In this document: positions 1-14,503 of the stretch, one piece after another
How positions within the stretch are numbered: the stretch's first letter is position 1
Layout: every line of letters starts with the position of its first letter
Assembly: GCF_018613325.1 (NCBI RefSeq)
Contig: NZ_JAGGQJ010000036.1
Span: forward strand, 1-64,000
Reading direction: 5' to 3'
Length of the DNA: 64,000 bases
Source of the DNA: Bacillus sp. ISL-34
GTDB lineage: Bacteria > Bacillota > Bacilli > Bacillales > DSM-1321
Notes under the pieces: model-generated
Databases searched by the model: none
What the model was told of the DNA's origin: nothing
The model's input: the letters and a program-made list of their open reading frames with translations, nothing else
Program-made: the position numbers and the translations under genes

Positions 1-30
1 AAGGCCGCCAATTGGCAGCCTGCTTATTGA

Positions 31-90
31 GCTAAGCACCCGTTAGTTCTATAAGGAAAAGTGAACCTTTTTAAACAATCGTGCCCGTTT
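31..90. repeat. Partial copy of dispersed intergenic repeat
   Basis: The segment contains GCACCCGTTAGTTCTATAAG followed by AATCGTGCCCG. The same words recur near 1161-1255, 3913-4043 and 9813-9980. Bases 4-20 just upstream can fold (GGCCGCC / GGCAGCC). It looks like a decayed member of a non-coding repeat family lying behind the 3' end of the CorA gene. Confidence 0.5.
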
Positions 91-114
91 TTTGCATCGG
101 CTTTTTATTTTTAA

Positions 115-1056
115 TCATTTAAACCAACCCTTACGCCAAAACCATAACAACATTACAGAGCCAACTGATACCATAACTCCCAACACTCCAAAATATCCCC
201 ATTGCCAAGTAAGTTCTGGCATATATTCAAAATTCATCCCATATATACTGGCAATAAACGTTAAGGGTATGAAAACTGATGTCATAACAGTTAGTGTCTT
301 CATAATTCTGTTCATTCGGTTTGAATTTAGTGAAATATAGTTGTCTCGTATATCTGCCGTCATTTCTCGATTAGACTCAATCATTTCAGAAAGTCTCAAT
401 AGATGGTCGTATATATCCATAAAATAGACTCGATCATCTTTTGGGACTATCACTCTCTCCGAATTTAAAATTCTATACAGCAATTCTCTCATCGGAAAAA
501 TTGTGCGCCTTAACTTAAGTAACTGGTTTCTTATTTCATAAACATTTTCAATTAAATCTTGATTTGTTTTATTCATTTCTATTTCATTCAATTCATCTTC
601 ACTTTTATAAATACTTGGAAAATACTCATCTACAATTTTATCCATTATTGAATAAAAAATGTGGAGAACCCCTTTATTAATAGTGTTTTTATCCTCCATT
701 ACTCTTTTTCGAACCATTCCTATTTCACTTGAAGGTGATGAATGGAAAGTAACAATAAAATTGTGTCCGACAAATATATCTAATTCTTCAGGTGCAAGGG
801 AGACTTGGTTTAAAGTGTGTAGAACAAAAAAATTATACCCATCATAATAATCAAGTTTTGGACGCTGTAGAAAATGTAAGCAGTCTTCAATTGCAAGTGG
901 ATGGAAATCAAAATGAGTTTTTAAAAGCAGTGCTTCTTCATCATTAGGTGTATCGAAATCTACCCAAAACCATTTAATATCTGAATCATCTAAACGTTTT
1001 AATGGTATATCAGTTATTAGTTTTAAATCGTTTGTTACCGCAAAAGTATGAATCAT
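115..1056 (-). CDS. corA: CorA-family divalent cation (Mg2+/Co2+) transporter
   Basis: An inner-membrane channel expected to import Mg2+ or Co2+. The protein is 313 residues from the chosen start, normal for the family. The N-terminal two thirds is the soluble funnel with long charged helices. Near the C-terminus a hydrophobic helix ends in YGMNFEYMPEL, carrying the CorA signature GMN, and a second membrane helix and a basic tail (FWRKGWFK) follow. I chose the ATG at 1056 because GAGGAAG lies eight bases upstream; the open frame runs twelve codons further without a better site. The gene stands alone between intergenic repeats. The GMN signature makes the family call secure; the ion preference is not readable from sequence. 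Confidence 0.93.
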   Translation of the reverse strand: MIHTFAVTNDLKLITDIPLKRLDDSDIKWFWVDFDTPNDEEALLLKTHFDFHPLAIEDCLHFLQRPKLDYYDGYNFFVLHTLNQVSLAPEELDIFVGHNFIVTFHSSPSSEIGMVRKRVMEDKNTINKGVLHIFYSIMDKIVDEYFPSIYKSEDELNEIEMNKTNQDLIENVYEIRNQLLKLRRTIFPMRELLYRILNSERVIVPKDDRVYFMDIYDHLLRLSEMIESNREMTADIRDNYISLNSNRMNRIMKTLTVMTSVFIPLTFIASIYGMNFEYMPELTWQWGYFGVLGVMVSVGSVMLLWFWRKGWFK

Positions 1057-1160
1057 ATGTATCGCTTCCTCTTTTAATTGTAAATTAAACACTACCTCTT
1101 TGTGTCAGATACAAATTATTATTAATAACATAAAGAATTGGTCTAATATATTATAACTCC

Positions 1161-1255
1161 TTGTTCAACTAACCTGCCCCTTTAGTTCCACAAGAAAAAG
1201 GTTGCCGCAGCAACCCTTTATTAAACTAACGCACCTGTTAGTTCATTAAAGAAAA
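1161..1255. repeat. Dispersed intergenic repeat with central hairpin
   Basis: A copy of the family also seen at 3913-4043. It has TTGTTCAACTAACCTGCCC, then the hairpin GGTTGC-CGCA-GCAACC (1200-1215), then AACTAACGCACCTGTTAGTT. The flanking CTAAC / GTTAG words are themselves inverted. No coding potential is evident. Confidence 0.6.
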
Positions 1256-1275
1256 ACAATCCCTCTTATTGGGGT

Positions 1276-1322
1276 AGTGACAGGGTTTGTGTCATAGACC
1301 GCAAAGTAGAGTAGATACAGAG
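1276..1322 (+). repeat. Left arm of long inverted repeat around the phosphatase gene
   Basis: Bases 1289-1322 are an exact 34-base reverse complement of 3417-3450, including the word ATAGACCGCAAAGTAGAGTA. Similarity continues outward (AGTGACAGGG against AGTAACAGGG) with small differences, giving arms of about 46 bases. The arms enclose the phosphatase gene and a gene remnant. Confidence 0.75.
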
Positions 1323-1373
1323 CTTATTAAATTAGCTTTATAATCTATATTCAAAATCATCACATTTCATATA

Positions 1374-1665
1374 CTATCCAGTCTGGAAGTGATCTTGAAA
1401 AGCGATTAAATCATCTCTCTTCCCAACTTGCTCACATAATACAACAAAACCATCATTTATTGCGGTATCTTCAGAAATGGCCAGAGCAAAGTAAGATCGT
1501 TTCAACACCTTCTGGAGGCACAGTCATTGTACGTATGTAATTAATAATGGTTCGGCACCACACATTAAAGCTTCCCAATTTAAACAGAGGATTTTCTAAA
1601 GCACTGAAATTTGCAATTAATAAGCCGTTATACGTAAAACAAACATTAATTGCGTCTGAGAGCAT
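1374..1665 (-). pseudogene. Frameshifted remnant of an unidentified protein
   Basis: A 64-codon frame starting at 1665 ends at 1471. The next frame carries on at once with a protein-like sequence (FALAISEDTAINDGFVVLCE..., ending at 1374), so a single frameshift near 1480-1490 joins two halves of about 95 residues. I do not recognise the family. It lies between the left inverted-repeat arm and the phosphatase, divergent from the latter. Confidence 0.45.
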
Positions 1666-1791
1666 TTCTCTGCATATAAAAAAAGAGTAAGTTATATAAA
1701 AATCACTCCTTTTAACATTTATTGTTTGATAGATAAAACTGAGCTAAGGGCCACATACATCTAAACATCGTCAGTATGATAAGTAATCATA

Positions 1792-1845
1792 TTTACAATC
1801 TTTTTACTTTCTTCTATCTAAAAAATCACAATTTGTCGATAAAAT
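1792..1845 (+). promoter_or_regulatory. Candidate PhoP (Pho box) promoter of the alkaline phosphatase
   Basis: Four hexamers at exact 11-base steps, TTTACA (1792), TTTACT (1803), CTATCT (1814) and ATCACA (1825), resemble the Bacillus PhoP repeat TT(A/T/C)ACA spaced by about five bases. TAAAAT at 1840-1845 is a fitting -10, and no good -35 is present, as expected of a PhoP-activated promoter. The third hexamer is weak. Confidence 0.6.
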
Positions 1846-1886
1846 TGAATTTGTGTCAAAAATACATAGAACAGGGAGAGATAAGT

Positions 1887-3245
1887 ATGTTTAAGAAAAC
1901 AGCCTTTATTCTATTAGGTGCTACCATATTACTTACTAGCGTAGGAATGGGATCACATACTACAACAAATGAGACCGAGGCAAAAACTATTCCTAAATCA
2001 TCTGTAAAGAATGTTATTATGATGGTTCCTGACGGTTATTCAACAGCGTATGCTACAAATTATCGCTGGTATAAAGGAAAAGAAAGTGCGATGGATCCAT
2101 TACTTGTTGGAATGGTACGTACCCACTCTGCTAATACAGAAGTGACTGATTCAGCAGCAGCAGGTACTGCATACGCTACCGGTGTAAAAACAAATAATGG
2201 AATGGTTAGTGTTACTCCTCAAGGAAAAGAATTGAAAACAGTTCTAGAAGGTGCAGAGTCCAAGGGAAAAGCCACTGGGCTTGTTGTTACGTCAAGCCTT
2301 ACTGATGCAACCCCTGCAGCCTTTTCTTCTCACGTTACTGATCGCTCTAACGAAGTTGCTATTCCATCACAAATTCTTTCAAACGATGTGGATGTTATTC
2401 TAGGAGGCGGAAAGGACTTTTTCTTACCAGAGAAATTAGGTGGAAAACAAACTAGCCAAAACTTAGTAGAAAAAGCTAAAAAACAAGGTTATCGATATGT
2501 GGAAACTGAAAAACAGTTAGCAAATGTGAAAGGTAACAAAGTCCTTGGTTTATTTGCTGATGAAGGAATGTCACCTGAATTAGACCGTGAAACGACAAAA
2601 GAACCAAGTCTTACTACTATGACAACTAAAGCCCTAGATACATTGAAAAAGGATAAGGATGGATTCTTTTTAATGGTTGAAGGAAGTCAAATTGATTGGG
2701 CTGGCCATTCTCATGATGCAGCACGCGCTATGAAGGATACTGAATCATTTGAAAAGGCTGTAGAGGAAGTTGTTAATTTTGCTAAGAAAGACGGGAACAC
2801 CCTTGTAGTTATTGCTGGCGACCATGATACAGGAGGAATGTCTGTAGGTGGTTATGATCAATACGATACAAAAGTAGATATATTGCACAATGTCACAGCT
2901 TCTGCTCCTTATATTGAGTCGAAATTTAACAAAGATTTTAGTAACGTGAAAGAAGTCGTCAAACAATATACTAAACTAGACCTTAGTGACGAAGAAGTAC
3001 AACGTATTAAAGATGCAAAACAAAGCAACGGTGATCAACCAATTAAAGATTCAGATAACGTAGCGTACACAATTAGTAATATTATCAGTGAACATGCTTT
3101 AATTGGGTGGACTAGCACAGGTCATACAGGTACAGATGTGCCCCTTTATGCATATGGAAAAGGAGCTCAATCATTTAGTGGGCTAAAACAAAACACAGAT
3201 ATTGCTAACTTAATGGCAAAAGCAATGAATGTGAACCTCAAATAG
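1887..3245 (+). CDS. Secreted alkaline phosphatase
   Basis: Hydrolyses phosphate monoesters outside the membrane to supply phosphate. The 452-residue protein begins with a typical Sec signal (basic FKK, a hydrophobic stretch to about residue 20, then small polar residues). Mature landmarks are VPDG (about 47-50, metal ligand Asp), TDSAAAGTAYATG (about 87-99, catalytic Ser) and GDHDTGG plus GHTGTDVP later, all features of the PhoA fold. I chose the ATG at 1887 because AGGGAGAG precedes it by six bases; the upstream 37 codons look non-coding. A candidate PhoP-dependent promoter lies upstream and a terminator follows at 3341. The gene sits inside a 2.1-kb segment bounded by long inverted repeats, which suggests movement or rearrangement. 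The family is certain; which phoA/phoB paralogue it matches is not. Confidence 0.95.
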   Translation: MFKKTAFILLGATILLTSVGMGSHTTTNETEAKTIPKSSVKNVIMMVPDGYSTAYATNYRWYKGKESAMDPLLVGMVRTHSANTEVTDSAAAGTAYATGVKTNNGMVSVTPQGKELKTVLEGAESKGKATGLVVTSSLTDATPAAFSSHVTDRSNEVAIPSQILSNDVDVILGGGKDFFLPEKLGGKQTSQNLVEKAKKQGYRYVETEKQLANVKGNKVLGLFADEGMSPELDRETTKEPSLTTMTTKALDTLKKDKDGFFLMVEGSQIDWAGHSHDAARAMKDTESFEKAVEEVVNFAKKDGNTLVVIAGDHDTGGMSVGGYDQYDTKVDILHNVTASAPYIESKFNKDFSNVKEVVKQYTKLDLSDEEVQRIKDAKQSNGDQPIKDSDNVAYTISNIISEHALIGWTSTGHTGTDVPLYAYGKGAQSFSGLKQNTDIANLMAKAMNVNLK

Positions 3246-3340
3246 ATCTAATTAAAGAGGAACTAAAGATTCAACATTTGACTATAAACGATCATGATCT
3301 TTTTAAAATCTTGATTTTCGTTTTAGGAAGTAGCTAAAAA

Positions 3341-3386
3341 AGCCAAACCCCTGATACGCATGGGTTTGGCTCTTAGTCGTTTTTTA
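3341..3386 (+). terminator. Intrinsic terminator after the phosphatase
   Basis: AGCCAAACCC (3341-3350) pairs with GGGTTTGGCT (3362-3371), and a T-run begins eight bases later. It lies 95 bases past the stop codon. Confidence 0.75.
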
Positions 3387-3401
3387 TCGTTTATTCACTA
3401 T

Positions 3402-3884
3402 TCATACAACCTTTTCCTCTGTATCTACTCTACTTTGCGGTCTATGACACACCCCTGTTACTCTGTTCAATTCATTATCATTTTCTAAAATAATCTTTCC
3501 AGTACTCTCTTTAATGAATAATGGTTCGTTAAGTTCCTCCATACTCAAAACGTAATAAAAAGGACTAAACTGTTTCAATAATTCGGGTTCATCAATAAAT
3601 TTAATATTTTCAAAATCAACAAAAGAAGCAAAAGCTAAAAAAGGATAATGTTCATTAAGCAATATATGCAAATGTTTATTGAAAACTTTAACTTCGACAT
3701 TTAAAAAATTAGTTGCAAACTGTGGTTCTATGAATTCCAACACTTTTCCGTTATTCCTTTTCATGATACTAAAACATTGCTGTTTAAATTGTTTCCCATC
3801 AATTGTTGGTGGCTTATTATGTTTTGCATTATAAAAACCGGTTACTCCTTTAGGAAGTTTCAATAAACATCCACCCGCATTCAT
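3402..3884 (-). CDS. Hypothetical protein whose C-terminus is encoded by the inverted repeat
   Basis: A soluble 160-residue frame with no signal or membrane segment and a readable N-terminal half (LKLPKGVTGFYNAKHNK...). I do not recognise its family. The last 15 or so codons (VCHRPQSRVDTEEKVV) lie within the right arm of the long inverted repeat (3417-3462), so the original C-terminus was probably replaced when the repeat arrived. Whether it is still functional is unknown. It converges on the phosphatase gene. Confidence 0.55.
   Translation of the reverse strand: MNAGGCLLKLPKGVTGFYNAKHNKPPTIDGKQFKQQCFSIMKRNNGKVLEFIEPQFATNFLNVEVKVFNKHLHILLNEHYPFLAFASFVDFENIKFIDEPELLKQFSPFYYVLSMEELNEPLFIKESTGKIILENDNELNRVTGVCHRPQSRVDTEEKVV
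3417..3462 (-). repeat. Right arm of long inverted repeat
   Basis: Reverse complement of 1276-1322, exact over 34 bases (3417-3450) and imperfect beyond. It overlaps the 3' end of the hypothetical gene at 3402-3884. Confidence 0.75.
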
Positions 3885-3912
3885 AATTTTTATAGCTTAT
3901 ATTCTCCATTCC

Positions 3913-4043
3913 TTATGCAACTATCCTGCCCCGATAGTTCCATTAGAAAAAGGCTGCCGCAGCAACCCACTATTAATGAAGCACCCGTTAGTTGATTAAG
4001 ACAAGCTAACCTTATTCAAGAATCGCGCCCTTTTATGGAATAA
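3913..4043. repeat. Most complete copy of the dispersed intergenic repeat
   Basis: Carries AACTATCCTGCCCCGATAGTT, the hairpin GGCTGC-CGCA-GCAACC, GCACCCGTTAGTT and then TTATTCAAGAATCGCGCCC. These modules are found singly or together at 31-90, 1161-1255, 9813-9980 and 11378-11411. Confidence 0.6.
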
Positions 4044-4090
4044 ACTTTCGGAAGATTTGTCTCCAATATTACTTCTTAAGTTGTTGTAAA

Positions 4091-4718
4091 CTATGGCCAC
4101 AGAAGTTCTTTGATCCATTCGTTATTTTCCATTCGATACAATAAGCGTATATGCTTCCTTTCTCTATCTCCTTGCCAAAATTCCACCTCACTTGCTGTTA
4201 CTTTATATAAACACCAATAAGGGGCTACTGTATTAGTCATTCGCTCAATTTGCTTTATAAATGATTCCTCTAAGACTTTACTGTCGGGCAAAACTTTACT
4301 TTGTTTTCCTAGAAAAGCAATGGCTCGTGCAACTTCCCCTCTTTCTAAAAAATCCTTTGCACTTTGCTCTTTTCCTACCCTCAATGAGGTTCCTCGTATT
4401 CGAACTTGCCTTCCAATCAAAGACCAATAAAAAGTTAAAGAAACATTTGGATTCATCTTCAATTGTTGTCCCTTTATACTGTTTTAGCTAGAAGCAAAGT
4501 ACCATCCATCTTCATCCATATCTTTTAAAATAAATACTCTTGCATCAGGGTGCCCAAAACTATAGATGGTAGAAAGTGTCATGGAGTGAGGTTCATGAAC
4601 TTCATTCTTTATAGCAATATGAAACCATTCTTGAAAGAGCTCATTTGGTTTGAAGGAACATTTTTAGGGCAAATTTTGGAAATGGCCCTTCCAAAGATTT
4701 GAGGTTTCTTAGTAGCTT
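4091..4718 (-). pseudogene. pdxH: Broken pyridoxamine/pyridoxine 5'-phosphate oxidase (PdxH)
   Basis: PdxH is an FMN enzyme oxidising pyridoxamine or pyridoxine phosphate to PLP. The last 123 codons are intact and diagnostic (NPNVSLTFYWSLIGRQVRIRG, FWQGDRERKHIRLLYR, ELLWP end). In the same frame upstream I read FHIAIKNEVHEPHSMTLSTI ... YFASS, followed by a TAA where homologues continue into SRKGKQL. Further upstream LEGPFPKFA lies in another frame, so there is a frameshift near 4660-4675 as well. An N-terminal start is not visible. With at least two lesions this is a pseudogene; the TTG-initiated 123-residue piece is unlikely to work alone. Confidence 0.85.
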
Positions 4719-4782
4719 ATGTGTATTCTATATGTATACTCCTTTTCCCTAATTTCAGCGTTCAAGAGAAAAGTAAATTATT

Positions 4783-4998
4783 TTATTTGATTTTTTTGGG
4801 TATTGTTAGACTCTTCCAATAAACGGACTTAATTTGTTTACCAATATAAACGATTTGTCCTATATGATAAGAATAATGGTACATGCTTTTTTCAATCTCT
4901 TCAATCACAGTAAGGGGTTTATTACTAAGGTCATTAAAGCACGATTCGAAGAAATGAAAAGTATTTTCAAACCCAATTTCCTTTATATAATTGTACCT
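4783..4998 (-). pseudogene. C-terminal remnant of a DinB/DUF1572-like protein
   Basis: The minus strand reads through about 70 codons after an in-frame TGA, ending at 4783. It includes a run EEIEKSMYHYSYHIGQIVYI followed by GKQIK...WKSLTIP. HxxYHxGQIVYIGK plus WxSLSIP is typical of the C-terminus of DUF1572 proteins in the DinB superfamily. No N-terminus is found, so this is a truncated relic beside the pdxH pseudogene. Confidence 0.65.
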
Positions 4999-5088
4999 TC
5001 AAACAGCATCAGTTCCGTGTGAAATTTGCGGTGAGCCCTCTGCCCCAGGCACCCATATGTGTTATTGAGCATATAAGTCCCTAAGCTT

Positions 5089-6510
5089 TTACCGTACTCT
5101 TTTTTGCCATTCACCAACAAATTCAGCTTCATTGTAAGAAAAGAAGTTTTTCAGAATCTCTTCTTGATCATCAAGGAAAAGCTGATCCGCCACCGCTGAA
5201 ACGAGCTTTGGTATTCCATATCTCATGCCTGAAAGCGCGGAGGCCGAGATACCACAGCTAATTAAAGCCGAATAGTTAAAAGCAAAAAGTCCATGCAGGC
5301 GCTTTTTAACCTTTTCATCGCGGCTTGTGAAAGCAAAGCCAGGGCTAAGGTAAGGGTGTGCATCGAGCATATCATTAGATATCTCAGTTGGTACCTTATA
5401 ACGATCGCCCCAGCGAGCAATATAGCTTTCGACCAGCCTCAACTCCGGACGCAAAGCCGGATCAGTGAGAAGACCAGTGCTGATGATCAGGAAATCGAAG
5501 GTGAATTCTCCCTTAGGCGTGGTCACCACGGCACCCTCACCTGTTGCCACTACATCAAGCCATGGTGCACCTAAGTGCAGATTGAAACCAGGCCATGAAG
5601 CTGCGCGTTCAAAGGTATCATTGGTCGGTGGTTGATTGTGCTTAAAGAAATGGGCGATAACGGCATATTTATCAGCGTCAGATAAGGCATGGAAACGTTC
5701 AATTAGGCCCGACCCCTCCATCTGGCGGATTGGGTTAATTCGCGGCATCTCCTTGCGGCGCACAAATACATGAGCCTCGGCCACACCTTCCCATAATGCG
5801 AAATTGGCATTATCAAAAGCTGAGGCCCCGCCTCCCAAAATAGCAACCTTCTTGCCCTTAAGTGCATTAAAATCAATAGCTTCAGACGTGTGGGCATAGA
5901 GATTACGAGGTAATTTTTCAGAAATCATTGGAGGCACATGCCATTCGCCTCCACCCTGAATACCAGTAGCCAGAATGACCTTGCGTGCCAGCAACGTGTT
6001 GCACAGTGCTCCCGATCCTTCGACATACAATCGGTGAATCCCTTCTTCCGACGGCTCAATGAGCTTCAGCTTCACCTCATTGATGACGGGCAAATTGAGC
6101 ACCTTCCGATACCAGCGCAAATAGTTCATCCAATCGCCCCGTGGAATCTTCACCACCTCTTCCCAGCCTTTCGGTCCGAATTGCGCTTCCCACCATGAGC
6201 GGAAGGTTAGAGAAGGAACCCCGAGGTCAATGGAAGTCAAATGCTTGGGCGTTCTGAGTGTCACCATGCGGGCGTAGGTTTCCCACGGCCCTTCTAGGCC
6301 TTCCTGATTTTCATCAATAACAAGGATATTGGATACTCGCTCACGCAAAAGACCAAAAGCTGTGCCTAAGCCGCTTTGGCCGCCGCCAATGATTACTACA
6401 TCGTAGACGTGACCCTCAGGATGGTGAAGCGGACGCACCCAGTCCGCTCCACCGAACCCAAGATAAAAAAGATCGAGTTTGACTTGTTCATTTAAAGCTT
6501 CTAAGCTCAT
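5089..6510 (-). CDS. FAD/NAD(P)-dependent monooxygenase, candidate urate hydroxylase
   Basis: A 473-residue soluble flavoprotein with two Rossmann motifs: VVIIGGGQSGLG (about 39-49) for FAD and VAILGGGASAFDNA (about 222-235) for NAD(P)H. This is the layout of single-component flavin monooxygenases. It is the last gene of a minus-strand operon whose other members are a urate-type permease and the two enzymes acting after urate oxidation. No PucL-type uricase domain is present, so by position it should convert urate to 5-hydroxyisourate. A flavoprotein urate hydroxylase unrelated to uricase (HpyO of Xanthomonas) is known; whether this one is homologous must be tested. The start at 6510 has AGAGGA upstream. 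Base composition is visibly more GC-rich than its neighbours, suggesting transfer from another lineage. Confidence 0.8.
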   Translation of the reverse strand: MSLEALNEQVKLDLFYLGFGGADWVRPLHHPEGHVYDVVIIGGGQSGLGTAFGLLRERVSNILVIDENQEGLEGPWETYARMVTLRTPKHLTSIDLGVPSLTFRSWWEAQFGPKGWEEVVKIPRGDWMNYLRWYRKVLNLPVINEVKLKLIEPSEEGIHRLYVEGSGALCNTLLARKVILATGIQGGGEWHVPPMISEKLPRNLYAHTSEAIDFNALKGKKVAILGGGASAFDNANFALWEGVAEAHVFVRRKEMPRINPIRQMEGSGLIERFHALSDADKYAVIAHFFKHNQPPTNDTFERAASWPGFNLHLGAPWLDVVATGEGAVVTTPKGEFTFDFLIISTGLLTDPALRPELRLVESYIARWGDRYKVPTEISNDMLDAHPYLSPGFAFTSRDEKVKKRLHGLFAFNYSALISCGISASALSGMRYGIPKLVSAVADQLFLDDQEEILKNFFSYNEAEFVGEWQKRVR

Positions 6511-6580
6511 AATTTTTCATTCCTCTCAACATATTATTTGTTGTCAGTTGTCATCCATCGGCCAAACCGACCATTGAATG

Positions 6581-6934
6581 TTAACTTCCCCGATAGACTT
6601 GATAGCCCCATGGTGAAACGAGCAACGGGACATGATAGTGTGAAGACGAGTTATTGATGCCAATTCGCACTGATACCTTATCAAGAAAGGCAGGATCGGA
6701 TAGTTGCAGTCCCTTTTTCCTGAAATAGTCTCCAATATAAAACAGTAGTTCATACTCTCCAGATTGGATGTTATTGAAGTCGAGAAGGGGATAATCTAAT
6801 CGGCCATCAAAATTAGTTACGGCGGTGTTTAACAAACGTCTTGTTGATCCTTCCCAACGATAGAGCTCGATGTCTACCTCTGAAGCAGGGTGGCCATGCG
6901 TTAAATCTAATATATGTGTAGTAAGTCCCTTCAT
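6581..6934 (-). CDS. pucM: 5-hydroxyisourate hydrolase
   Basis: Hydrolyses 5-hydroxyisourate to OHCU in the urate pathway. At 117 residues it has the family's usual size. Its transthyretin-like signatures are at both ends: THILDLTHGHPA near the start, with a catalytic His, and YHVPLLVSPWGYQVYRGS at the end, including the conserved YRGS tail. GAGGATG precedes the ATG. It lies 17 bases after the OHCU decarboxylase gene and 70 bases before the flavoprotein, in one probable transcript. Confidence 0.95.
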   Translation of the reverse strand: MKGLTTHILDLTHGHPASEVDIELYRWEGSTRRLLNTAVTNFDGRLDYPLLDFNNIQSGEYELLFYIGDYFRKKGLQLSDPAFLDKVSVRIGINNSSSHYHVPLLVSPWGYQVYRGS

Positions 6935-6951
6935 CTAATCAACATCCTCAT

Positions 6952-7446
6952 TTATATAATTTGATCTTCTATTCTAAATTGAACAATTTGATAGATTTCT
7001 GATAAGGCTTGGTCAAATTCTTGTTCTTTTGAATTTTTTAATCGTTCCCTCATCGCTTGAAGAATTTCATCTTTGTTTTTTCCGCGAACAGCTAAAATAA
7101 AGGGAAATCCAAATCGTTGAACGTACTCTTTATTCATTTCCAGCAAAAACTCATACTCTGCTTCTGACAGCTGATTCAATCCAGCACCCTTTTGTTCACT
7201 CTGGGAAAATGAAGTCATCGGTTTTCGTGTCCCTAAATGGGGGTGGGCCTGAATTAAGTTCAGTTTTTCTCTTTCACTCGCTGTTTGGACAACGGTAATC
7301 ATCTGTTCATAAAGAGCCTCACGGGAACTAAAAGGACGAAACTTCCCTACCCTTTGGACTACCCAGGGGGAGTGTTCAAATATATCTTTTAATTTTTCCA
7401 CAAACCCAGACAACGAAATTTCATTTAAAGCATTCATAGTAACCAT
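6952..7446 (-). CDS. uraD: OHCU decarboxylase (stand-alone)
   Basis: Decarboxylates 2-oxo-4-hydroxy-4-carboxy-5-ureidoimidazoline to (S)-allantoin. The 164-residue protein carries the family signature HPHLG (about 71-75) and FGFPFILAVRGK with the downstream R-L-N-S-like patch. In B. subtilis this domain is fused to uricase in PucL; here it ends at the stop codon with no uricase part. The ATG at 7446 has AAAGGGG at good spacing; a second ATG three codons in is possible. It follows the permease by 24 bases. Confidence 0.92.
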   Translation of the reverse strand: MVTMNALNEISLSGFVEKLKDIFEHSPWVVQRVGKFRPFSSREALYEQMITVVQTASEREKLNLIQAHPHLGTRKPMTSFSQSEQKGAGLNQLSEAEYEFLLEMNKEYVQRFGFPFILAVRGKNKDEILQAMRERLKNSKEQEFDQALSEIYQIVQFRIEDQII

Positions 7447-7470
7447 ATATCATAACCCCTTTATCTTTTT

Positions 7471-8784
7471 TTATGAAACGTGTGCTTCGTCAGCTTCCTC
7501 ATGCTGAAGGGATGCTGGAGTAGGCGCTAAAACTGTCCGGAAGTTAAAAAATAGATTCATAAAGATAGCAGTTAGGCTTCCAGTAATTACTCCATCGCTA
7601 ACGATGATTTTTATTGCTGAAGGCAATTGACTAAATAACTCAGGTACGACGGTGGCTCCCAGTCCTAGCGAAATTGAGCAAGCAACAATAAGTGCGTTAT
7701 GTTGATTGCTGAAATCTACTGAACCTAGCATTTTAATTCCTGAAGACACGACCATACCAAACAATACAACCGTAGCACCGCCAAGCACGGGGGCAGGAAT
7801 AATGGTAGCAATGGCAGCAATTTTAGGAACTAAACCAAGAAAAACTAGGATACTACCTGCTGCAACCACAACGTTCGTTGATTTGTTTTGAGATAATTGA
7901 ACCAGTCCTACATTTTGAGCAAAGGTGTTGTAGGGAAAGGCATTAAAGATGCCTCCTAAGGTGATGGCCAAGCCTTCTGCTCGATATCCTCGAGTGAGAT
8001 CATCTTGTGTAACAGGACGATCACAAATTTTCCCTAAGGCAAAAAACACACCGGTTGATTCAACAACAATGACTAATCCTACAATTAACATCGTCAGTAT
8101 CGGACCGATCTCGAAAGATGGGACACCGAAATAGAAAGGTTGAGGAATACGGAACCACGAAGCTTCTACAACCTCATGAAAATCTACTTTCCCCAACATT
8201 GCCGCTAATGCTGTACCTGCGATAATTCCTAAGAGCACAGAAAGAGAGCGGACATATCCTTTAAAGAAACGATTGATGATGAGAATAACAGCGATGACAC
8301 CCATGGATAACATCAAGTTATCTAAGCTGCCGAAGTCCGGCTTCCCGGTTCCCCCTGCCATATTTCTAATTCCTGATGGAATTAACGATAGTCCAATGAT
8401 CGTGACGACAGTTCCCGTGACAACAGGTGGAAAGAACTTTACGAGTTTTCCAAGATAGCGAGCAAATAAAAAAATGAAGATTCCTGTTGCTATAATAGAT
8501 CCGTAAATGGCAGGAATGCCATATTGCGATCCGATAGCGACCATCGGCGTCAGGGCGACAAACGAAGCACCCAAAACAACGGGTAACCCAATACCAAAAT
8601 ATTTGTTTTTCCATGCCTGTAGTAAGGTAGCAATGCCACAAGTTAATAAATCAATGGCAACCAAGTAAGCCAATTGCTCTGGAGTAAGGTTTAATGCCCT
8701 CCCAACAAGCAATGGAACAAGAATCGCTCCAGCATACATGGCCATGACGTGCTGGAATCCTAACGAAAATACTTTTGAATTCAT
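7471..8784 (-). CDS. NCS2-family urate/xanthine permease (PucJ/PucK type)
   Basis: A cytoplasmic-membrane symporter of 437 residues with about 12-14 hydrophobic segments. The NCS2 features are ALTPMVAIGSQYG in TM3, VVESTGVFFALG in TM8 (conserved Glu) and YNTFAQNVGLVQLSQ in TM10. Family members closest to this pattern are the B. subtilis uric acid permeases PucJ and PucK, and the neighbouring urate-degradation genes support urate as substrate. It heads the run of four genes. A strong hairpin with a T-run lies 30 bases before its start, either the terminator of the upstream gene or an attenuator. Confidence 0.88.
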   Translation of the reverse strand: MNSKVFSLGFQHVMAMYAGAILVPLLVGRALNLTPEQLAYLVAIDLLTCGIATLLQAWKNKYFGIGLPVVLGASFVALTPMVAIGSQYGIPAIYGSIIATGIFIFLFARYLGKLVKFFPPVVTGTVVTIIGLSLIPSGIRNMAGGTGKPDFGSLDNLMLSMGVIAVILIINRFFKGYVRSLSVLLGIIAGTALAAMLGKVDFHEVVEASWFRIPQPFYFGVPSFEIGPILTMLIVGLVIVVESTGVFFALGKICDRPVTQDDLTRGYRAEGLAITLGGIFNAFPYNTFAQNVGLVQLSQNKSTNVVVAAGSILVFLGLVPKIAAIATIIPAPVLGGATVVLFGMVVSSGIKMLGSVDFSNQHNALIVACSISLGLGATVVPELFSQLPSAIKIIVSDGVITGSLTAIFMNLFFNFRTVLAPTPASLQHEEADEAHVS

Positions 8785-8810
8785 CTGTACTCCCCCTTAA
8801 TTTGCTTTTT

Positions 8811-8859
8811 AAAAAAAGCCGCAGAAATAGAAGGGGTTTCCTCCTATATCTACGGCTCT
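8811..8859 (-). terminator. Strong hairpin plus T-run before the urate permease
   Basis: On the minus strand AGCCGTAGATATAGGAGG pairs with CCTTCTATTTCTGCGGCT with three imperfections, followed by seven T. It could end the DUF2294 transcript or attenuate the urate operon. Confidence 0.7.
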
Positions 8860-8954
8860 CAAATTACGTATAACGAAATTTAAGCTCCTGAATCCTTGAA
8901 ACAAGTCTGTGAAGAAAAAATGATAAATCAAAATCTCTCCAACACTAATATTGA

Positions 8955-9296
8955 TTAGATATCAAGCGATTGTTCTAGGTAAATCACCGTACAAGCATGC
9001 TCACTTGTGGAATCGTAATCCTTAAATATGGTGTTAACCTTCATCCCAAATCGCCTCTCAAAGTTTTCTTTTAATCGAAGTTTATATTCCATGGCTAAAG
9101 CCCCATCGACGGATAAGGTCAGCTCAGGATACCTTTCACTTAATACTGAGATTAAAGGCGAGCGCTTCGTCTGCGCAAAAATGACAATGCGATTATCCTG
9201 GATGTCAATTTTTTGCTTACTAACTCCCGTACTATAAATTTCTTGGTTGACGTCATTATATAACTGTGACAGCTGCATTTTAAAAGAAGAATTCAC
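8955..9296 (-). CDS. DUF2294 (MpsC-like) protein
   Basis: A small soluble 113-residue protein with the DUF2294 pattern: an N-terminal helix, then KQKIDIQDNRIVIFAQ, ERYPELTLSVDGALAMEYK and FGMKVNTIFKDYD. DUF2294 occurs in proteins called MpsC-like (membrane potential generation), but function is poorly known and I assign none. The GTG at 9296 follows AGGTGAG; an internal ATG at 9278 is an alternative. It precedes the urate permease in the same direction, separated by 170 bases that contain a terminator-like hairpin. Confidence 0.7.
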   Translation of the reverse strand: MNSSFKMQLSQLYNDVNQEIYSTGVSKQKIDIQDNRIVIFAQTKRSPLISVLSERYPELTLSVDGALAMEYKLRLKENFERRFGMKVNTIFKDYDSTSEHACTVIYLEQSLDI

Positions 9297-9380
9297 CCAT
9301 ACTCACCTGCTGCTTCTAGTTCTTGTATTAATCATATAAAAATTATTGCCCTTTGACACTATTTATGTAAGGAAATCTAA

Positions 9381-9581
9381 CATATTATTTTAATTTCTTA
9401 CCAGTCCATAGCAGCTCCATCCACTCGAGGATCGACACTTTGGGATCATTTGAAAGAAATTCGAAGTGAATACGACTTTGTAACTTTTACTCTAAAAGAA
9501 TATCGAATGACATTTAAGCATCTTCATCAATTAGCTTTGGAAAATGGTTATGCCATTCATCTAATAATTACATGCACATAA
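9381..9581 (+). pseudogene. Unidentified coding remnant
   Basis: A stop-free stretch encoding APSTRGSTLWDHLKEIRSEY and continuing FTLKEYRMTFKHLHQLALENG has protein-like composition but no start codon or ribosome binding site. Its 3' end overlaps an Old Yellow Enzyme fragment on the other strand, marking a recombination junction near 9557-9581. Family not recognised. Confidence 0.3.
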
Positions 9582-9745
9582 GCGAGATTTAATTTAGCTA
9601 ATTCAGGAATTAAAAAACGATATACATCTAAACCATTTTCTCCTTCATTTATACCTATAAAGTCTAAGTTACCAGGAGAAATTCGGAATCCGGTACAATT
9701 TGCACCAATTTCTTCTGCTACAGGGGCTAAAAAATACACCCTCAA
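9557..9745 (-). pseudogene. Internal fragment of an Old Yellow Enzyme-type alkene reductase
   Basis: The 62-codon frame reads APVAEEIGANCTGFRISPGN and later YRFLIPELAKLNLAYVHVI. This matches the middle of NADH:flavin oxidoreductases (conserved GxxRxGxRxSP and LNLAYxHVIE). Both ends are missing: it begins inside a 12-bp hairpin and stops right after HVI. It is a relic, not a gene. Confidence 0.75.
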
Positions 9746-9771
9746 TTGCTAGACTTTTTGTCTAGCAATTG
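9743..9771. repeat. Perfect 12-bp inverted repeat at the edge of the OYE fragment
   Basis: CAATTGCTAGAC-TTTTT-GTCTAGCAATTG. It coincides with the point where the Old Yellow Enzyme homology starts, so it may mark a breakpoint or a captured terminator. Confidence 0.6.
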
Positions 9772-9812
9772 GGGTGCAGTTCAGTTCATAGAAATTGACC
9801 TTTTTATTTTGT

Positions 9813-9980
9813 CTTGTTCAAGTAACTCACCCGTTAGTTCTATAAGAGGTAGCGTCAGGAAAATGCGTATTTATAACGTTAAAGAAAATTTCGATATTAA
9901 AAAGCCCAATTTCTCAGCATTAAAATTGAGAAATTGGGCTTTTTCCGTTACTCCATTAAAGCGCCCGATTCTTGAATAAC
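9813..9980. repeat. Dispersed repeat interrupted by a 16-bp hairpin
   Basis: Bases 9813-9855 (TTGTTCAAGTAACTCACCC, GTTAGTTCTATAAG) and 9951-9980 (the inverted CCATTAAAGCGCCCGATTCTTGAATAA) are modules of the intergenic repeat family. Between them AAAGCCCAATTTCTCA (9901-9916) and its exact complement (9927-9942) form a strong hairpin usable as a bidirectional terminator. Confidence 0.55.
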
Positions 9981-10032
9981 TAAAAATGACTTAGTACACG
10001 ATCTTTTCTAACAACGTACGGTGACCCAAGAT

Positions 10033-10058
10033 GTAGCTATTCTACTTTGCGGGTAATA
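10033..10058 (+). repeat. Third, diverged copy of the phosphatase-flanking repeat core
   Basis: GTAGCTATTCTACTTTGCGG matches 18 of 20 positions of the right arm beginning at 3421 (GTATCTACTCTACTTTGCGG). No partner arm is seen nearby. Confidence 0.4.
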
Positions 10059-10118
10059 GGTTCGCTGGCCCCCCCTTATAGAAAAAATATTTTTATGACT
10101 GATTTGACGCTCACCTTT

Positions 10119-10176
10119 ATGTAAGTACCTGTATTAAAAGTGCATACTTACATATTTGCAGTGTGCACTTTATAAT
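10119..10176 (+). promoter_or_regulatory. Promoter and HxlR-type operator of the quinone reductase gene
   Basis: ATGTAAGTA (10119-10127) and TACTTACAT (10145-10153) are a perfect inverted repeat. AAGTGCA (10138-10144) and TGCACTT (10164-10170) form a second, overlapping one, and TATAAT follows at 10171-10176. GTAAGTAT also occurs 5' of the hxlR gene at about 11224. Confidence 0.6.
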
Positions 10177-10210
10177 CAAGATATAAATAATACTTTAGGA
10201 GGACAAATCT

Positions 10211-10771
10211 TTGAAAACTCTTGTTATCGTAACACATCCCAGCATAGAAACATCCGTCATTAATAAGCGATGGGTAGAAGAACTGAAAAAATATCCGGAA
10301 AAGTTTACTGTTCACGAATTGACTAAAGTTTACCCTGATGGAAACATAGACGTGGAAAAAGAACAAAAATTGGTTGAATCACATGGTAATCTTGTTTTGC
10401 AGTTCCCTATATATTGGTTTAATTGTCCGCCTCTCCTTAAAAAATGGTTTGACGATGTTTTAGCTTATGGATGGGCTTATGGTTCAAATGGCGGAGATAA
10501 ATTAAGGAATCGTAAAGTTGCTTTAGGTGTATCTGCAGGAATCAAAAAAGAGGATTATAGTAAAAACGGAAGATATCGGTATACACTTGAACAACTATTA
10601 GTTCCATTTGAAACGACTTTCCTGTATTGCAATGCAGATTATCGTTCGTTCTTTGCGTTTTATGGCAAAGAAAATGAGCCGGGTGGAAACGAAGAAGAAG
10701 AAAATGAGTCGGGTGCAAGTGAATTGGAAAAAAGCGCTCAGGATTATTTGAATTTTGTTGACAACCTGTAA
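10211..10771 (+). CDS. Flavodoxin-fold NAD(P)H:quinone oxidoreductase
   Basis: A cytoplasmic FMN/FAD enzyme of the NQO/YwrO/MdaB type, 186 residues. It starts MKTLVIVTHPS (phosphate-binding loop) and has LVLQFPIYWFNCPPLLKKWFDDVLAYGWAYG pieces typical of the family. Such enzymes reduce quinones or electrophiles by two electrons. The TTG start at 10211 follows AGGAGG. It converges with an HxlR regulator, and its promoter carries two nested inverted repeats; in B. subtilis HxlR proteins such as YodB and HypR control quinone-responsive reductases. An acidic insert (EEEENE, about 157-162) precedes the last helix. Confidence 0.85.
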   Translation: MKTLVIVTHPSIETSVINKRWVEELKKYPEKFTVHELTKVYPDGNIDVEKEQKLVESHGNLVLQFPIYWFNCPPLLKKWFDDVLAYGWAYGSNGGDKLRNRKVALGVSAGIKKEDYSKNGRYRYTLEQLLVPFETTFLYCNADYRSFFAFYGKENEPGGNEEEENESGASELEKSAQDYLNFVDNL

Positions 10772-10795
10772 TAGGCAGCTTAATTAAAGCTATAA

Positions 10796-10824
10796 AAAAG
10801 AAGTATTTTTATTATACTTCTTTT
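10796..10824. terminator. Bidirectional terminator between reductase and hxlR genes
   Basis: AAAAGAAGTAT (10796-10806) pairs perfectly with ATACTTCTTTT (10814-10824), with A- and T-runs on both sides. Confidence 0.8.
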
Positions 10825-10846
10825 GATTTAAACAAAATAGCTATGC

Positions 10847-11206
10847 CTACCTCTGTACATCCTCCAGAGCTGGCAAACGGTTTTTCTCTCCCCACTCGCA
10901 CATCATATTTAACAAAGGAACGAGAGAAAGACCACGGTCAGATAATGAATATTCAACTTTTGGAGGTACTTGGGGAAATTCCTTGCGTATGATAAGGCCA
11001 TCTGCCTCAAGCTCTTTTAACATGATGCTTAGCGTTTTAAAAGAAATGATACCGATACTTCGCTTCAGCTCATTATGCCGCATAACCTTATTTTCAGACA
11101 GCCAATATATAATGATCATTTTATATTTACCGCCTATTAAGGACAACGTATATCCAAAGCCAGTGTCTTTTCGTTCAACGCCAGTCGGAACACAGGTTTT
11201 GCGCAT
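10847..11206 (-). CDS. HxlR-family transcriptional regulator
   Basis: A 119-residue winged-helix regulator with the HxlR hallmarks: YTLSLIGGKYKMIIIYWL, RHNELKRSIGIISFKTLS (recognition region), LEADGLIIRKEFPQVPPKVEYSLSD pieces and a terminal dimer helix. Cys5 stands in the N-terminal position used by YodB (Cys6) to sense quinones and diamide, so redox sensing is plausible. AAAGGAGAG precedes the ATG. It likely represses the converging quinone reductase gene; GTAAGTAT upstream of its own start suggests autoregulation. Confidence 0.88.
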   Translation of the reverse strand: MRKTCVPTGVERKDTGFGYTLSLIGGKYKMIIIYWLSENKVMRHNELKRSIGIISFKTLSIMLKELEADGLIIRKEFPQVPPKVEYSLSDRGLSLVPLLNMMCEWGEKNRLPALEDVQR

Positions 11207-11377
11207 AAGTTACACTCTCCTTTAGGTAAGTATATGAAATATCCTTTACAATAGATCATTATGCAATCTTATTGCAAAGGATGTAAAGTAAAATCGCTAT
11301 AAAATTTTGCTATATCTTTAATTCGAGTAAATTTTAACAAAACACCCCTTAGATTGACTGTTAAAAAACTTCTTCTT

Positions 11378-11411
11378 TATTCAATTAAATTGCCCTTTAA
11401 TGGAATAACAT
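11378..11411 (+). repeat. Degenerate repeat module
   Basis: TATTCAATTAAATTGCCCTT and TAATGGAATAA resemble the second module of the 3913-4043 copy. The rest of 11226-11489 shows no gene I can support. Confidence 0.35.
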
Positions 11412-11489
11412 GACTGGCGTTTTAAACAACTTTATTGTAAATGTAACAACAAAAAATAGCCTCTACTCAAAGCGAGTAAGGGCTATTGA

Positions 11490-12629
11490 TTATGCTGCAA
11501 ACAATTTAGTGAAAGTAGCTTTACCTGCTTTCTTATCTACAGTTATCTTTTTAGCTTCCTGGAATTTAGATAATTCTGATTCAGTACCTTTTCCAAAGAT
11601 AGAATCAAGTGATCCAGGGTTAAACCCTGCCATATATAGTGCAAGCCTGTAGGATTCATGTGAGATTGCCTTTTACACCTTTTTCGACAGTGACGATGGC
11701 AGCCTTAGTCTTAGCTCCCCATTTTCCATCCACAACAAGTTTTTTATTAAACTGTTTATTAAGTTCTGTTTGTATGCCTTTGATAAGCGCTGTTTTAGTT
11801 CCAGGACCTTTAATCCCATCCACAAAAAGACTGGCTTTATACCGGCTATTTAATGTTTTTTTGAATGGAAACTATAACACTATCCCCACTACTCGTAGGC
11901 TTCGTGTCTTCTTTGATATTTTCAGGTTTTTCACTAACATCTTTAGCGTTTCCAAAATTGATTTTCTGGCCTAGTTTTAATATAGCTGGATCGATACCGG
12001 GATTCGCTTTTATTAAACCTTTAACTTGGACGCCACCAGTACCGTCCTTATGTGCAATGCTCCATAAAGTATCTCCTTGTTGGATTTTATAAACATCAGG
12101 AGCCGGTGCTGGTTTGGCTCGGGTTTTTGAACCTTTCCAATCAAAAGCATCTCTGTAGTTATACTGACAACAAGCTTTCCAACTATAAACTCGCATTTCA
12201 TTATGGGCTTATCATACTTTCCTATCCCAACAAGCGCAATGTGAAGCTGCGCAATACTTGCAAGTGTGGCTTCATCCATAATGTCATATCGATAATCACC
12301 AGCAACACAGATTCCAAACGAGAATTGGTTGCTATTCCCTGCATGATAGGTCCTTCGGTCAATATCATATGCATATACAACTCTAGCCCTTGGAGTAATA
12401 ATCAGATTCTTTGGCTCGATAATAAATGTATTTCCAACTCCAGGCCACCCCAGCGTGTTTACATGGTAAATTGCGAAGCTTTCAGCAGTAGAATCCAGCC
12501 AAATTCTCCTTTGTTAATGAATGATGCTATACACGGCGAGTTATTGCTCTTGTGCGTTTTTGAATAAGTACCTTTTGATTTTAATTTGCCTCTTTTATTG
12601 ACTAATTGAGGAAGTTTATTAAATTCCAT
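11490..12629 (-). pseudogene. Degraded prophage endolysin (Amidase_2 + LysM + peptidoglycan-binding)
   Basis: Reading the minus strand across frames reconstructs an N-acetylmuramoyl-L-alanine amidase of about 380 codons. MEFNKLPQLVNKRGKLK begins at the ATG at 12629. DSTAESFAIYHVNTLGWPGV then TYHAGNSNQFSFGICVAGDY is the amidase domain (12290-12490). VYKIQQGDTLWSIAHKDG is LysM (about 12050-12100), and LVVDGKWGAKTKAAIV plus FNPGSLDSIFGKGTESELSK form the peptidoglycan-binding part, ending TAA at 11490. At least four frameshifts separate these pieces, so no full enzyme is made. Domain order matches phage lysins that cut the amide bond of peptidoglycan. Confidence 0.88.
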
Positions 12630-12680
12630 TTTCCATCGTTTCCTTTAATTTTAAATGGTATTCTTATTTTCGGAGCAACA

Positions 12681-12703
12681 AAAAAGACGCCTCGATAAGG
12701 CGT
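12681..12703 (-). terminator. Terminator after the CBO0543-like gene
   Basis: On the minus strand ACGCCT-TATCG-AGGCGT followed by TCTTTTTT. Confidence 0.7.
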
Positions 12704-12720
12704 TTTATGTCCCATTTTCA

Positions 12721-13182
12721 TTAATACATCTGTTTGTTAAATGAAAAATATTTCATAACTAATTTGTAATAACCATAGGTCATTAAAAGCGAAATTCCAT
12801 AACTTACTGCTGTCCAATATATATTCCATCCATTTAGGTAATCTAATTTACCTAGTATTACTAATAATAGTTCAAAGAAACTTTCACCTAAGGTTAAGAC
12901 TAAAAAAGTAATTAGGAAAGGCACTTTTTTATAATGGATTATACATATAAATAAGCAGCTCAGTATTGGAAAGAGCCCTATATCATAGGGAAGTGAGGGG
13001 AACGATAATTCTACAAAATCCTCATTCATCTTCCAAAAATAATTAAATCCAATTTTGTTTATTAAAAAAGCTATGGCAGTGCCAATCGGGTAAATAATAA
13101 CGAAAATCCTATTGTGATTTCTAACTAAATAAACTCCTAGGATCCATGGGAAAATAAAACCAACGATTGTATGAAAAAACAT
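12721..13182 (-). CDS. CBO0543-like integral membrane protein
   Basis: A 153-residue protein made almost wholly of hydrophobic segments (four or five transmembrane helices), with aromatic and tryptophan-rich loops (NYFWKMNEDF, YLNGWNIYWTAVSYG). The pattern resembles the CBO0543 family of small Bacillus and Clostridium membrane proteins of unknown role. GGGAGGGG lies before the ATG and a terminator follows. It is the only intact frame inside the prophage lysis relic, lying between the holin and endolysin remnants. Confidence 0.65.
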   Translation of the reverse strand: MFFHTIVGFIFPWILGVYLVRNHNRIFVIIYPIGTAIAFLINKIGFNYFWKMNEDFVELSFPSLPYDIGLFPILSCLFICIIHYKKVPFLITFLVLTLGESFFELLLVILGKLDYLNGWNIYWTAVSYGISLLMTYGYYKLVMKYFSFNKQMY

Positions 13183-13252
13183 ATCCCACCCCTCCCTTAT
13201 TAAATCTGATACAATAGTCTTTCCCCAAAAATCACAATAAACATACCTAAAA

Positions 13253-13275
13253 AAAAGCCACCCGATGGGCAGCTT
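13253..13275 (-). terminator. Terminator after the holin remnant
   Basis: Minus-strand AAGCTGCCC-ATC-GGGTGGCTT (closed with two G-U pairs) is followed by eight T. Confidence 0.75.
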
Positions 13276-13294
13276 ATTTCAATCCATTCTTTTT

Positions 13295-13519
13295 CTATAC
13301 TTCTTCTTGTTTATGAGCTTTCTTAGTTAGCAAAAATTGATTCTTATATACACCGTATAGGGCAAACGCTAACGGAATTGCAGCCAATAAAACATTCAAA
13401 AAGGCATCTATTGTTTTTTCGTTAAATCACGAGATTTCAAAACCTAATGCCTGAAAAAATAAAAGCAGTGGCCCCAGGACACCGCCAATTATTGCTACAT
13501 ATTGTTTTGTTTTATCCAT
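13295..13519 (-). pseudogene. Phage holin with an in-frame TGA
   Basis: From the ATG at 13519 (preceded by AAAGGGGA) the frame reads MDKTKQYVAIIGGVLGPLLL, then FFQALGFEIS, a TGA, and continues in the same frame FNEKTIDAFLNVLLAAIPLA to a basic tail KKAHKQEEV. Two hydrophobic helices and a charged C-terminus are the form of small phage holins. One nonsense codon about 31 codons in breaks an otherwise full 74-codon gene. Confidence 0.75.
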
Positions 13520-13520
13520 A

Positions 13521-13838
13521 TCAAAAATCCCCTTTGTTTTCGATTATATCAATTCGTTTATGAGCTTGTTTCGTACTTTCTTCATTACGAATCACTCTTT
13601 CTGATAATGCGGTCCAACGATGGTCACTGGCTTTAAAATCATTTCTAATTGAATCAACTGATTGACCAATATTATCTAACTTTTTCCTAATGATTGCAGA
13701 TTCTGTTGCATCATTTTTGACATTACTTTTGAAATCATTTTTTTTTATTTCTGTTAAGTATTAACAAACCAGGATGACCCCGGATGCCGTACACAATAAA
13801 CCAATTATCGTAATCAATAACTCATTTGAAACATTCAT
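13521..13838 (-). pseudogene. XhlA-like phage lysis protein with an in-frame TAA
   Basis: From the ATG at 13838 (GGAGTG upstream) the frame encodes an N-terminal membrane helix (ELLITIIGLLCTASGVILVC), then a TAA, then continues in frame with a coiled-coil-like domain (IIRKKLDNIGQSVDSIRNDF, RVIRNEESTKQAHKRIDIIE) to the TGA at 13521. This is the layout of XhlA/hemolysin-like proteins that accompany holins. The single stop at codon 26 disables it. It abuts the holin start, as expected of a lysis cassette. Confidence 0.7.
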
Positions 13839-13860
13839 TTTTTCACTCCGTTTGTATATA

Positions 13861-13885
13861 AAATAAAAAGCCCTATTCGGCTTTT
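13861..13885 (-). terminator. Terminator upstream of the lysis cassette
   Basis: AAAAGCC (13866-13872) pairs with GGCTTTT (13879-13885). On the minus strand it is followed by TTTTTATTTT. It probably ended the lost structural-gene transcript. Confidence 0.55.
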
Positions 13886-13955
13886 GGTTGCAATCGATTA
13901 ATTATTTTTGTCCTCACGCTTCCGTTAATGCTGAAAAGGCTTAGTTCCCTTTTTT

Positions 13956-14426
13956 GTGCAGCACTCCCTTTATTATATTTCAGGTCAAGGTCTTGTTTTA
14001 CAAACTCCTAAAACACATAGCGGAAAAAGAAATATTTCTATTACTAATGAGATGATTGAAGAATTACAATCTTACAAAGTTAAGAAACAGGCACAACTTT
14101 TTAAAGTGGGGTTGAAGTTAATAGAGGATCACTTTGTCGTTTCTGCTTTTGGTGGAGATCCAGTAAACCCCAATAGGATACACAAGCAGTTTCTTTATGA
14201 TGGTAAGCTTGCCGGAATGAAGAGGATTCGATTTCATAATTTACGCCATACACTTGCAACTATAATGTTGGAAATCGGAGAAAATTCTAAAGTGATGTCA
14301 GAAAGATTAGGACATTCAAATATTTCTATAACATTAGATAAATATAGTCATGTAACTCAGAATATACAGGACTCTTCGGCAGAAAACTTTTCAAAAGCAC
14401 TAGGTAAAAAGAGCCTTGAGCAATAA
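13956..14426 (+). pseudogene. C-terminal part of a phage tyrosine integrase
   Basis: The 156-codon frame holds the end of the catalytic domain: TPKTHSGKRNISIT, then HNLRHTLATIMLEIGENSKV, ERLGHSNISITLDKYSHVT. The H-x-L-R-H, L-G-H and Tyr catalytic residues are present. The N-terminal arm- and core-binding domains and the first catalytic Arg (ALGLRW region) are missing, and the GTG at 13956 has no ribosome binding site. It is a truncated integrase marking one end of the prophage relic, next to mutL. Confidence 0.82.
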
Positions 14427-14457
14427 ATGTGGTCATTTAGTGGTATTTCATAAAAAT

Positions 14458-14498
14458 AACACTGGAGAACCCTTGTAAATAAAGGATTCTCCAGTGTT
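14458..14498. terminator. Bidirectional terminator between integrase remnant and mutL
   Basis: AACACTGGAGAA (14458-14469) pairs exactly with TTCTCCAGTGTT (14487-14498). It lies six bases from the mutL stop codon. Confidence 0.8.
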
Positions 14499-14503
14499 TA
14501 TAA

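Follow-up and report, generated by a model that had tools for sequence, protein, structure and literature searches.

The stretch of DNA analyzed here (the window) comprises 64,000 nucleotides of contig NZ_JAGGQJ010000036.1 from Bacillus sp. ISL-34. At positions 5089-8784, it carries four intact open frames in a single minus-strand run, encoding a permease, UraD, UraH, and a flavoprotein designated FLAV. FLAV is very probably a urate hydroxylase, a monooxygenase dependent on flavin adenine dinucleotide (FAD) and NAD(P)H that would hydroxylate urate at C5, with UraH and UraD acting downstream. It would provide an extra route in its own strain and is likely of the HpyO kind. The features are listed below.

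5089..6510, minus strand: FLAV, FAD/NAD(P)H flavoprotein of 473 amino acids, proposed urate hydroxylase (open frame; Pfam matches; invariant glycines; predicted class B fold)
6581..6934, minus strand: UraH, 5-hydroxyisourate hydrolase (TIGR02962 above cut-off; PF00576)
6952..7446, minus strand: UraD, stand-alone 2-oxo-4-hydroxy-4-carboxy-5-ureidoimidazoline (OHCU) decarboxylase (TIGR03164 above cut-off; PF09349)
7471..8784, minus strand: NCS2 xanthine/urate permease, PbuX-type (TIGR03173 above cut-off; PF00860)
8785..8954, minus strand: conserved leader with a terminator-like hairpin, candidate attenuator (fold z, conservation, pair-preserving changes)
8955..9296, minus strand: small MpsC-like gene, cassette-associated (weak PF10057, below cut-off for the window copy)

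The permease scored 546.1 bits against the xanthine permease model TIGR03173 (cut-off 414.15), UraD 185.6 bits against TIGR03164 (cut-off 96.25), and UraH 124.4 bits against TIGR02962 (cut-off 87.45). The same-direction operon described in the first-pass annotation is real, with all genes intact and the first three above curated NCBIfam cut-offs. The annotation had also stated that the decarboxylase lacks a uricase domain. UraD is indeed stand-alone, and the Pfam scan detected no PF01014 (uricase) domain in the window UraD or in FLAV; the absence of uricase is true for the window only. The MpsC-like gene probably belongs to the same run and is a possible regulator. Copies of 77-93% identity accompany the cassette in five additional loci (L021, L022, L041, L045, and L054) and on a plasmid (L101), and the gene lies directly upstream of the leader in all six of these cassettes, in which both elements were examined.

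FLAV exceeded the Pfam cut-offs of Pyr_redox_3, NAD_binding_9, Lys_Orn_oxgnase, DAO, and Pyr_redox_2. It passed no NCBIfam cut-off; six families matched at E up to 0.001, and NF033623 (urate_HpxO) was not among them. The identity of FLAV with HpxO was rejected on the missing match to this model. The ArsO and MSMEG_0569 types were likewise dismissed, their matches being partial and weak (53.6 bits for ArsO, cut-off 425; 36 bits for MSMEG_0569, cut-off 498.35). Two putative dinucleotide-binding motifs are located at residues 42-47 and 226-230, as expected of an FAD/NAD(P)H flavoprotein, and glycines G42-G44, G47, and G226-G228 are invariant among 42 aligned sequences. The predicted fold is that of a class B N-hydroxylating monooxygenase over most of the chain, with two dinucleotide domains. 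No HpxO structure appeared among the best 50 matches listed in each of two fold comparisons, and absence from such a list is no proof.

Co-distribution was analyzed in 398 Bacilli genomes drawn evenly, with FLAV called at E up to 1e-40. FLAV was present in 33 genomes, UraD in 49, and uricase in 32. The 49 UraD genomes comprised 17 with FLAV only, 16 with uricase only, 16 with both, and none with neither. The UraD set is thus the exact union of the FLAV and uricase sets, and every genome with FLAV or uricase has UraD. The number of FLAV genomes with UraD expected by chance is about 4 of 33. FLAV was accompanied by UraD without uricase in 17/33 FLAV genomes, and in a number of other Bacilli FLAV is the only urate-oxidizing enzyme identified. 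At the genus level, UraD was found in 21 of the 146 genera, and these include all nine FLAV genera (9/9; P 4.6e-9). A single genus (g69) accounts for 15 of the 16 genomes carrying both enzymes, and the remaining one is the ISL-34 genome itself. When g69 was left out, FLAV and uricase were nearly exclusive (16 and 16 genomes with one enzyme, 1 with both; Fisher P 1.5e-8); the genomes are related, so the P values reported here overstate independence.

A sample of 61 relatives showed UraD in 28 genomes and uricase in 23. Five relatives had UraD without uricase, and four of them carried full-length FLAV (G012, G021, G050, and G055). In the fifth, G006 of the own genus, the UraD match (G006:C1:1039406-1039681) contained four stops and neither a uricase match nor full-length FLAV was found, an apparent decay of the urate pathway. 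FLAV carriers among the relatives, the ISL-34 genome included, all had UraD (5/5, P 0.017). Of the 14 genomes with a match in this search, 9 had nothing more than weak, partial hits (best E 6e-9 to 7.6e-4) and were excluded from the FLAV count. Among 36 genomes of the own genus, uricase was found in 20/36 and FLAV in 3/36, and the two other FLAV genomes had no uricase match. A second, non-random sample started from 50 of the 80 FLAV loci described below, 18 of these 50 having been picked for a purine gene near FLAV, and covered 48 FLAV genomes; UraD was detected in 44/48 and uricase in 2/48. Without the 18 purine-picked loci, the values were 27/30 and 2/30. Three genome pairs (G055/G091, G395/G099, and G021/G082) look like duplicates, and the relatives and class samples overlap, so their counts were never summed.

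Gene neighborhoods were compared in 80 Bacilli FLAV loci with flanks of up to 8 kilobases. UraD and UraH were inside the flanks of 17/80 loci. The order UraD-FLAV-UraH, which places FLAV in the uricase slot, was found in 8/80 loci and the window-type order permease-UraD-UraH-FLAV in five of the 80. UraD/UraH lay a few kilobases from FLAV in three Paenibacillus loci and on the strand opposite to FLAV in L072, where the UraD match was split in two and one part contained a stop. Neighboring clusters also contained M20-type peptidase-family, class V aminotransferase, PucR, and amidohydrolase genes, which we take to represent later purine steps. In G012 and G021, UraD and UraH adjoin in a purine cluster with no uricase between them, and FLAV is located elsewhere in the genome. 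Peribacillus asahii MA001 is a further FLAV carrier. A plasmid search returned 348 records with a FLAV match, with no Xanthomonas record among the matches listed. Three of the 12 opened records carried UraD-FLAV-UraH, all on plasmids from outside the Bacilli: Novosphingobium (64%), Sphingobium (63%), and Niveispirillum (L142, 48%). No FLAV was found in viral contigs. The tree used in the analysis was a quick one with SH-aLRT (Shimodaira-Hasegawa-like approximate likelihood ratio test) support.

FLAV is very probably a urate hydroxylase, as in the sampled Bacilli its orthologues account for the step that lacks uricase and partly occupy the uricase slot. In this respect the first-pass annotation is supported, by co-distribution and by the UraD-FLAV-UraH loci; its further proposal that the flavoprotein replaces uricase in its own organism is not. 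The ISL-34 genome (54 contigs, 5.38 megabases) contains one PF01014 gene, G000:C37:39607-40638, an open frame of 343 amino acids with two matched stretches and no stops. Residues 23-336 align to the solved uricase 4r8x (E 1.5e-131). The gene lies between second copies of UraD and UraH, and the cluster also contains two PucR-type regulators and a second permease. The idea of an organism without uricase was therefore rejected, since an intact uricase lies between UraD and UraH on another contig. A redoxin/AhpC-type gene (L003:10829-11368, plus strand) follows directly downstream of uricase-UraH, which fits the production of hydrogen peroxide by uricase. Pfam recognized no such gene in the FLAV run, which comprises five genes. 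As the uricase cluster is intact alongside the FLAV cassette, the genome has two candidate urate-oxidizing routes, and FLAV would offer the strain a second one, carried by the cassette, rather than a replacement for uricase. The annotation had named two findings that would jointly speak against it, a separate uricase and a flavoprotein inactive on urate; the C37 gene supplies the first. A gene absent from one window may still be present in the genome.

In the proposed mechanism, the permease would import the purine, NAD(P)H would reduce the FAD of FLAV, and oxygen would then give a C4a-hydroperoxyflavin. One oxygen atom would be transferred to urate, yielding 5-hydroxyisourate, and the other would end in water; unlike with uricase, no hydrogen peroxide would be released. 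UraH and UraD of the same operon would convert 5-hydroxyisourate to S-allantoin. The peroxyflavin chemistry is proposed by analogy with class B monooxygenases. The HpxO/HpyO reaction, as given in the available text of PMC4562309, serves as a second model. The genes, the predicted fold, the neighborhood, and the co-distribution are shown here; we infer the substrate, the chemistry with its regiochemistry, the cofactor preference, and the kinship with HpyO.

The cassette, together with the MpsC-like gene and the leader, is common to Priestia abyssalis, Ectobacillus, and Domibacillus loci at 70-95% protein identity; the FLAV proteins of the window and of Priestia abyssalis share 89% identity. The entire permease-UraD-UraH-FLAV cassette of the same identity group is carried by Priestia filamentosa plasmid p5 (L101, CP136440.1), on which a Tn3-family transposase gene is located about 4 kilobases from the cassette. 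The guanine-cytosine content of FLAV is 0.489 versus 0.370 for its UraD; FLAV copies of Priestia abyssalis and Domibacillus (L041) also show about 0.48-0.49, making this contrast weak evidence of transfer. In the window, a phage-integrase-type fragment is present at 13956-14426 (plus strand) and a short pyridoxamine-phosphate-oxidase-like gene at 4091-4462 (minus strand). They flank the cassette region, which hints at past insertion and decay. The cassette was likely gained as one unit in this strain.

The leader upstream of the permease (fold z -3.97) contains a strong hairpin resembling an intrinsic terminator (about 8807-8860). This hairpin lies immediately ahead of the ribosome-binding site of the permease, and some 20 bases separate its T-run from the permease start codon. 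The leader is kept in seven cassettes. Six pairs of the hairpin are changed on both sides, and 96.9% of cells are paired compared to 49.8-64.0% when the alignment is slid. An nhmmer profile of the leader run over all loci gave E < 0.01 only in the seven cassettes. A covariance model run against 22 sources recovered the window copy and a borderline match, L155:6056-6213 (E 0.012), with the others at E 0.14 or worse. A purine riboswitch or other known RNA was rejected, with no Rfam match above gathering in window positions 1-15000 and six loci; a scan at a lax threshold gave nine matches, all far below gathering. Exact leader-pattern matches in two viral contigs (L172 and L173) were taken as chance, as none of the tested purine genes was found there. 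The leader could act as a transcription attenuator or a riboswitch; alternatively, the near-palindrome at about 8862-8890 might serve as a DNA operator.

Several observations weigh against urate hydroxylation by FLAV, in addition to the relatedness of the genomes noted above. The intact uricase of ISL-34 means that the pathway needs no FLAV there, and FLAV occurs alongside uricase in 16/398 genomes, i.e., the own genome and 15 others. Within the flanks of up to 8 kilobases, 63/80 loci have FLAV away from UraD/UraH, and 4/48 of the chosen FLAV genomes have no UraD match, which either speaks against an invariable association or indicates incomplete genomes. In a wider circle of homologues at about 38-45%, seven from alphaproteobacterial plasmids (L103, L104, and L166-L170) have no UraD/UraH in the stretches fetched, and the one from Mesorhizobium loti (L103) adjoins xanthine-dehydrogenase-family genes. 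Because such homologues stand without UraD/UraH nearby, the wider family is probably mixed in substrate and probably acts on other compounds too. An annotated 8-oxoguanine deaminase gene is located near the homologue on a Rhizobium sp. ACO-34A plasmid (L171, 43-44%); since L142 and L171 sit in purine settings, urate activity may extend past the FLAV clade. It could be argued that FLAV acts on another purine or related compound, such as a modified oxopurine, and that an unrecognized enzyme oxidizes urate in uricase-less genomes. Weaker NF033623 matches in 55/60 genomes, in some of which class A flavoproteins score up to 260 bits (cut-off 500), also lend themselves to this explanation. However, it requires a further enzyme distributed exactly like FLAV. 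PuuD (PF06181) was found in 0/62 genomes, the own included, with a control match in Caulobacter vibrioides; HpxO reached its cut-off in 0/60 genomes, a result that lacks a positive control, as none of 14 control genomes passed either. Given also the exception-free UraD union and the placement of FLAV in the uricase slot in 8/80 loci and on three plasmids, we regard a different substrate as improbable.

A chance neighborhood, with an ordinary flavoprotein beside urate genes, would draw on the large size of the flavoprotein superfamily and on the 63 loci without UraD/UraH. This explanation is barely credible in view of two distinct arrangements across several genera and two phyla and of a co-distribution that holds in all 398 genomes. 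A further explanation is compatible with urate hydroxylation and concerns only the own strain: FLAV may be a redundant passenger, laterally acquired with its cassette and active, yet minor beside the resident uricase. The intact uricase cluster with its two PucR-type regulators and redoxin/AhpC-type gene, the rarity of FLAV in the own genus, the plasmid-borne cassette of Priestia filamentosa, and the integrase-type fragment and oxidase-like gene near the cassette are in line with this. The open cassette genes, the 89% identity shared with FLAV of Priestia abyssalis, and the conserved leader argue for use. The passenger role is a serious possibility, although we lean slightly away from it.

If FLAV is a urate hydroxylase, one family with an assayable activity would explain the uricase-less purine degraders among the Bacilli (17/49 UraD genomes), and the label 'NAD(P)/FAD-dependent oxidoreductase', under which public records list FLAV, could be corrected. 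It would also be a Gram-positive urate oxidizer free of hydrogen peroxide, which might ease the peroxide problem of therapeutic uricase.

Among known systems, the N-hydroxylating monooxygenases PvdA, KtzI, and SidA share the predicted fold, but FLAV is only 13-16% identical to them; they act on amines, and no siderophore gene was recognized beside FLAV in the window. HpxO is of the class A flavoprotein type. It shares the proposed reaction and cofactors with FLAV, whereas FLAV is predicted to be class B with two dinucleotide domains and does not match NF033623. Uricase (Uox/PucL) acts at the same pathway step and occupies the same slot between UraD and UraH; it carries PF01014, which FLAV does not. 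In the available text of PMC4562309, uricase is a cofactor-free T-fold enzyme producing hydrogen peroxide. FAD-dependent urate hydroxylases have been automatically annotated in Bacillus paramycoides (PMC10460076), Bacillus paranthracis (gene called auaG; PMC12029181), and Bacillus subtilis (gene called hpxO; PMC12426190), and the accessible portions of these papers report neither a purified enzyme nor the name HpyO.

HpyO was reportedly described from Xanthomonas by Michiel et al. in 2012. The accessible part of PMC4562309 presents the Xanthomonas enzyme as an FAD-dependent urate hydroxylase using FAD and NAD(P)H, its family as distinct from HpxO, and hpxO and hpyO as large families with many paralogues. 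According to the same part, UraH plus UraD was unexplained in only twelve cases of 1689 species, a figure consistent with FLAV having been counted there as HpyO. By description, HpyO resembles FLAV as an FAD and NAD(P)H flavoprotein acting without uricase beside UraD/UraH. It differs in coming from Gram-negative bacteria, whereas FLAV is found in Bacilli and, in its own strain, beside uricase. The first-pass annotation had suggested an independent enzyme type; by sequence model FLAV is not HpxO, and it may simply be HpyO. An unlikely but bolder version is that FLAV of Bacilli and sphingomonads forms a clade of its own, a third type of flavoprotein urate hydroxylase that evolved separately on the class B N-hydroxylase fold and is not orthologous to HpyO. 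In this version, it would have displaced uricase in spore formers repeatedly and would spread as a cassette with an RNA attenuator of its own. FLAV most likely belongs to the HpyO kind or is a sister of HpyO. Flavoprotein urate hydroxylases are already known in HpxO and HpyO, and FLAV would be a further member of that kind.

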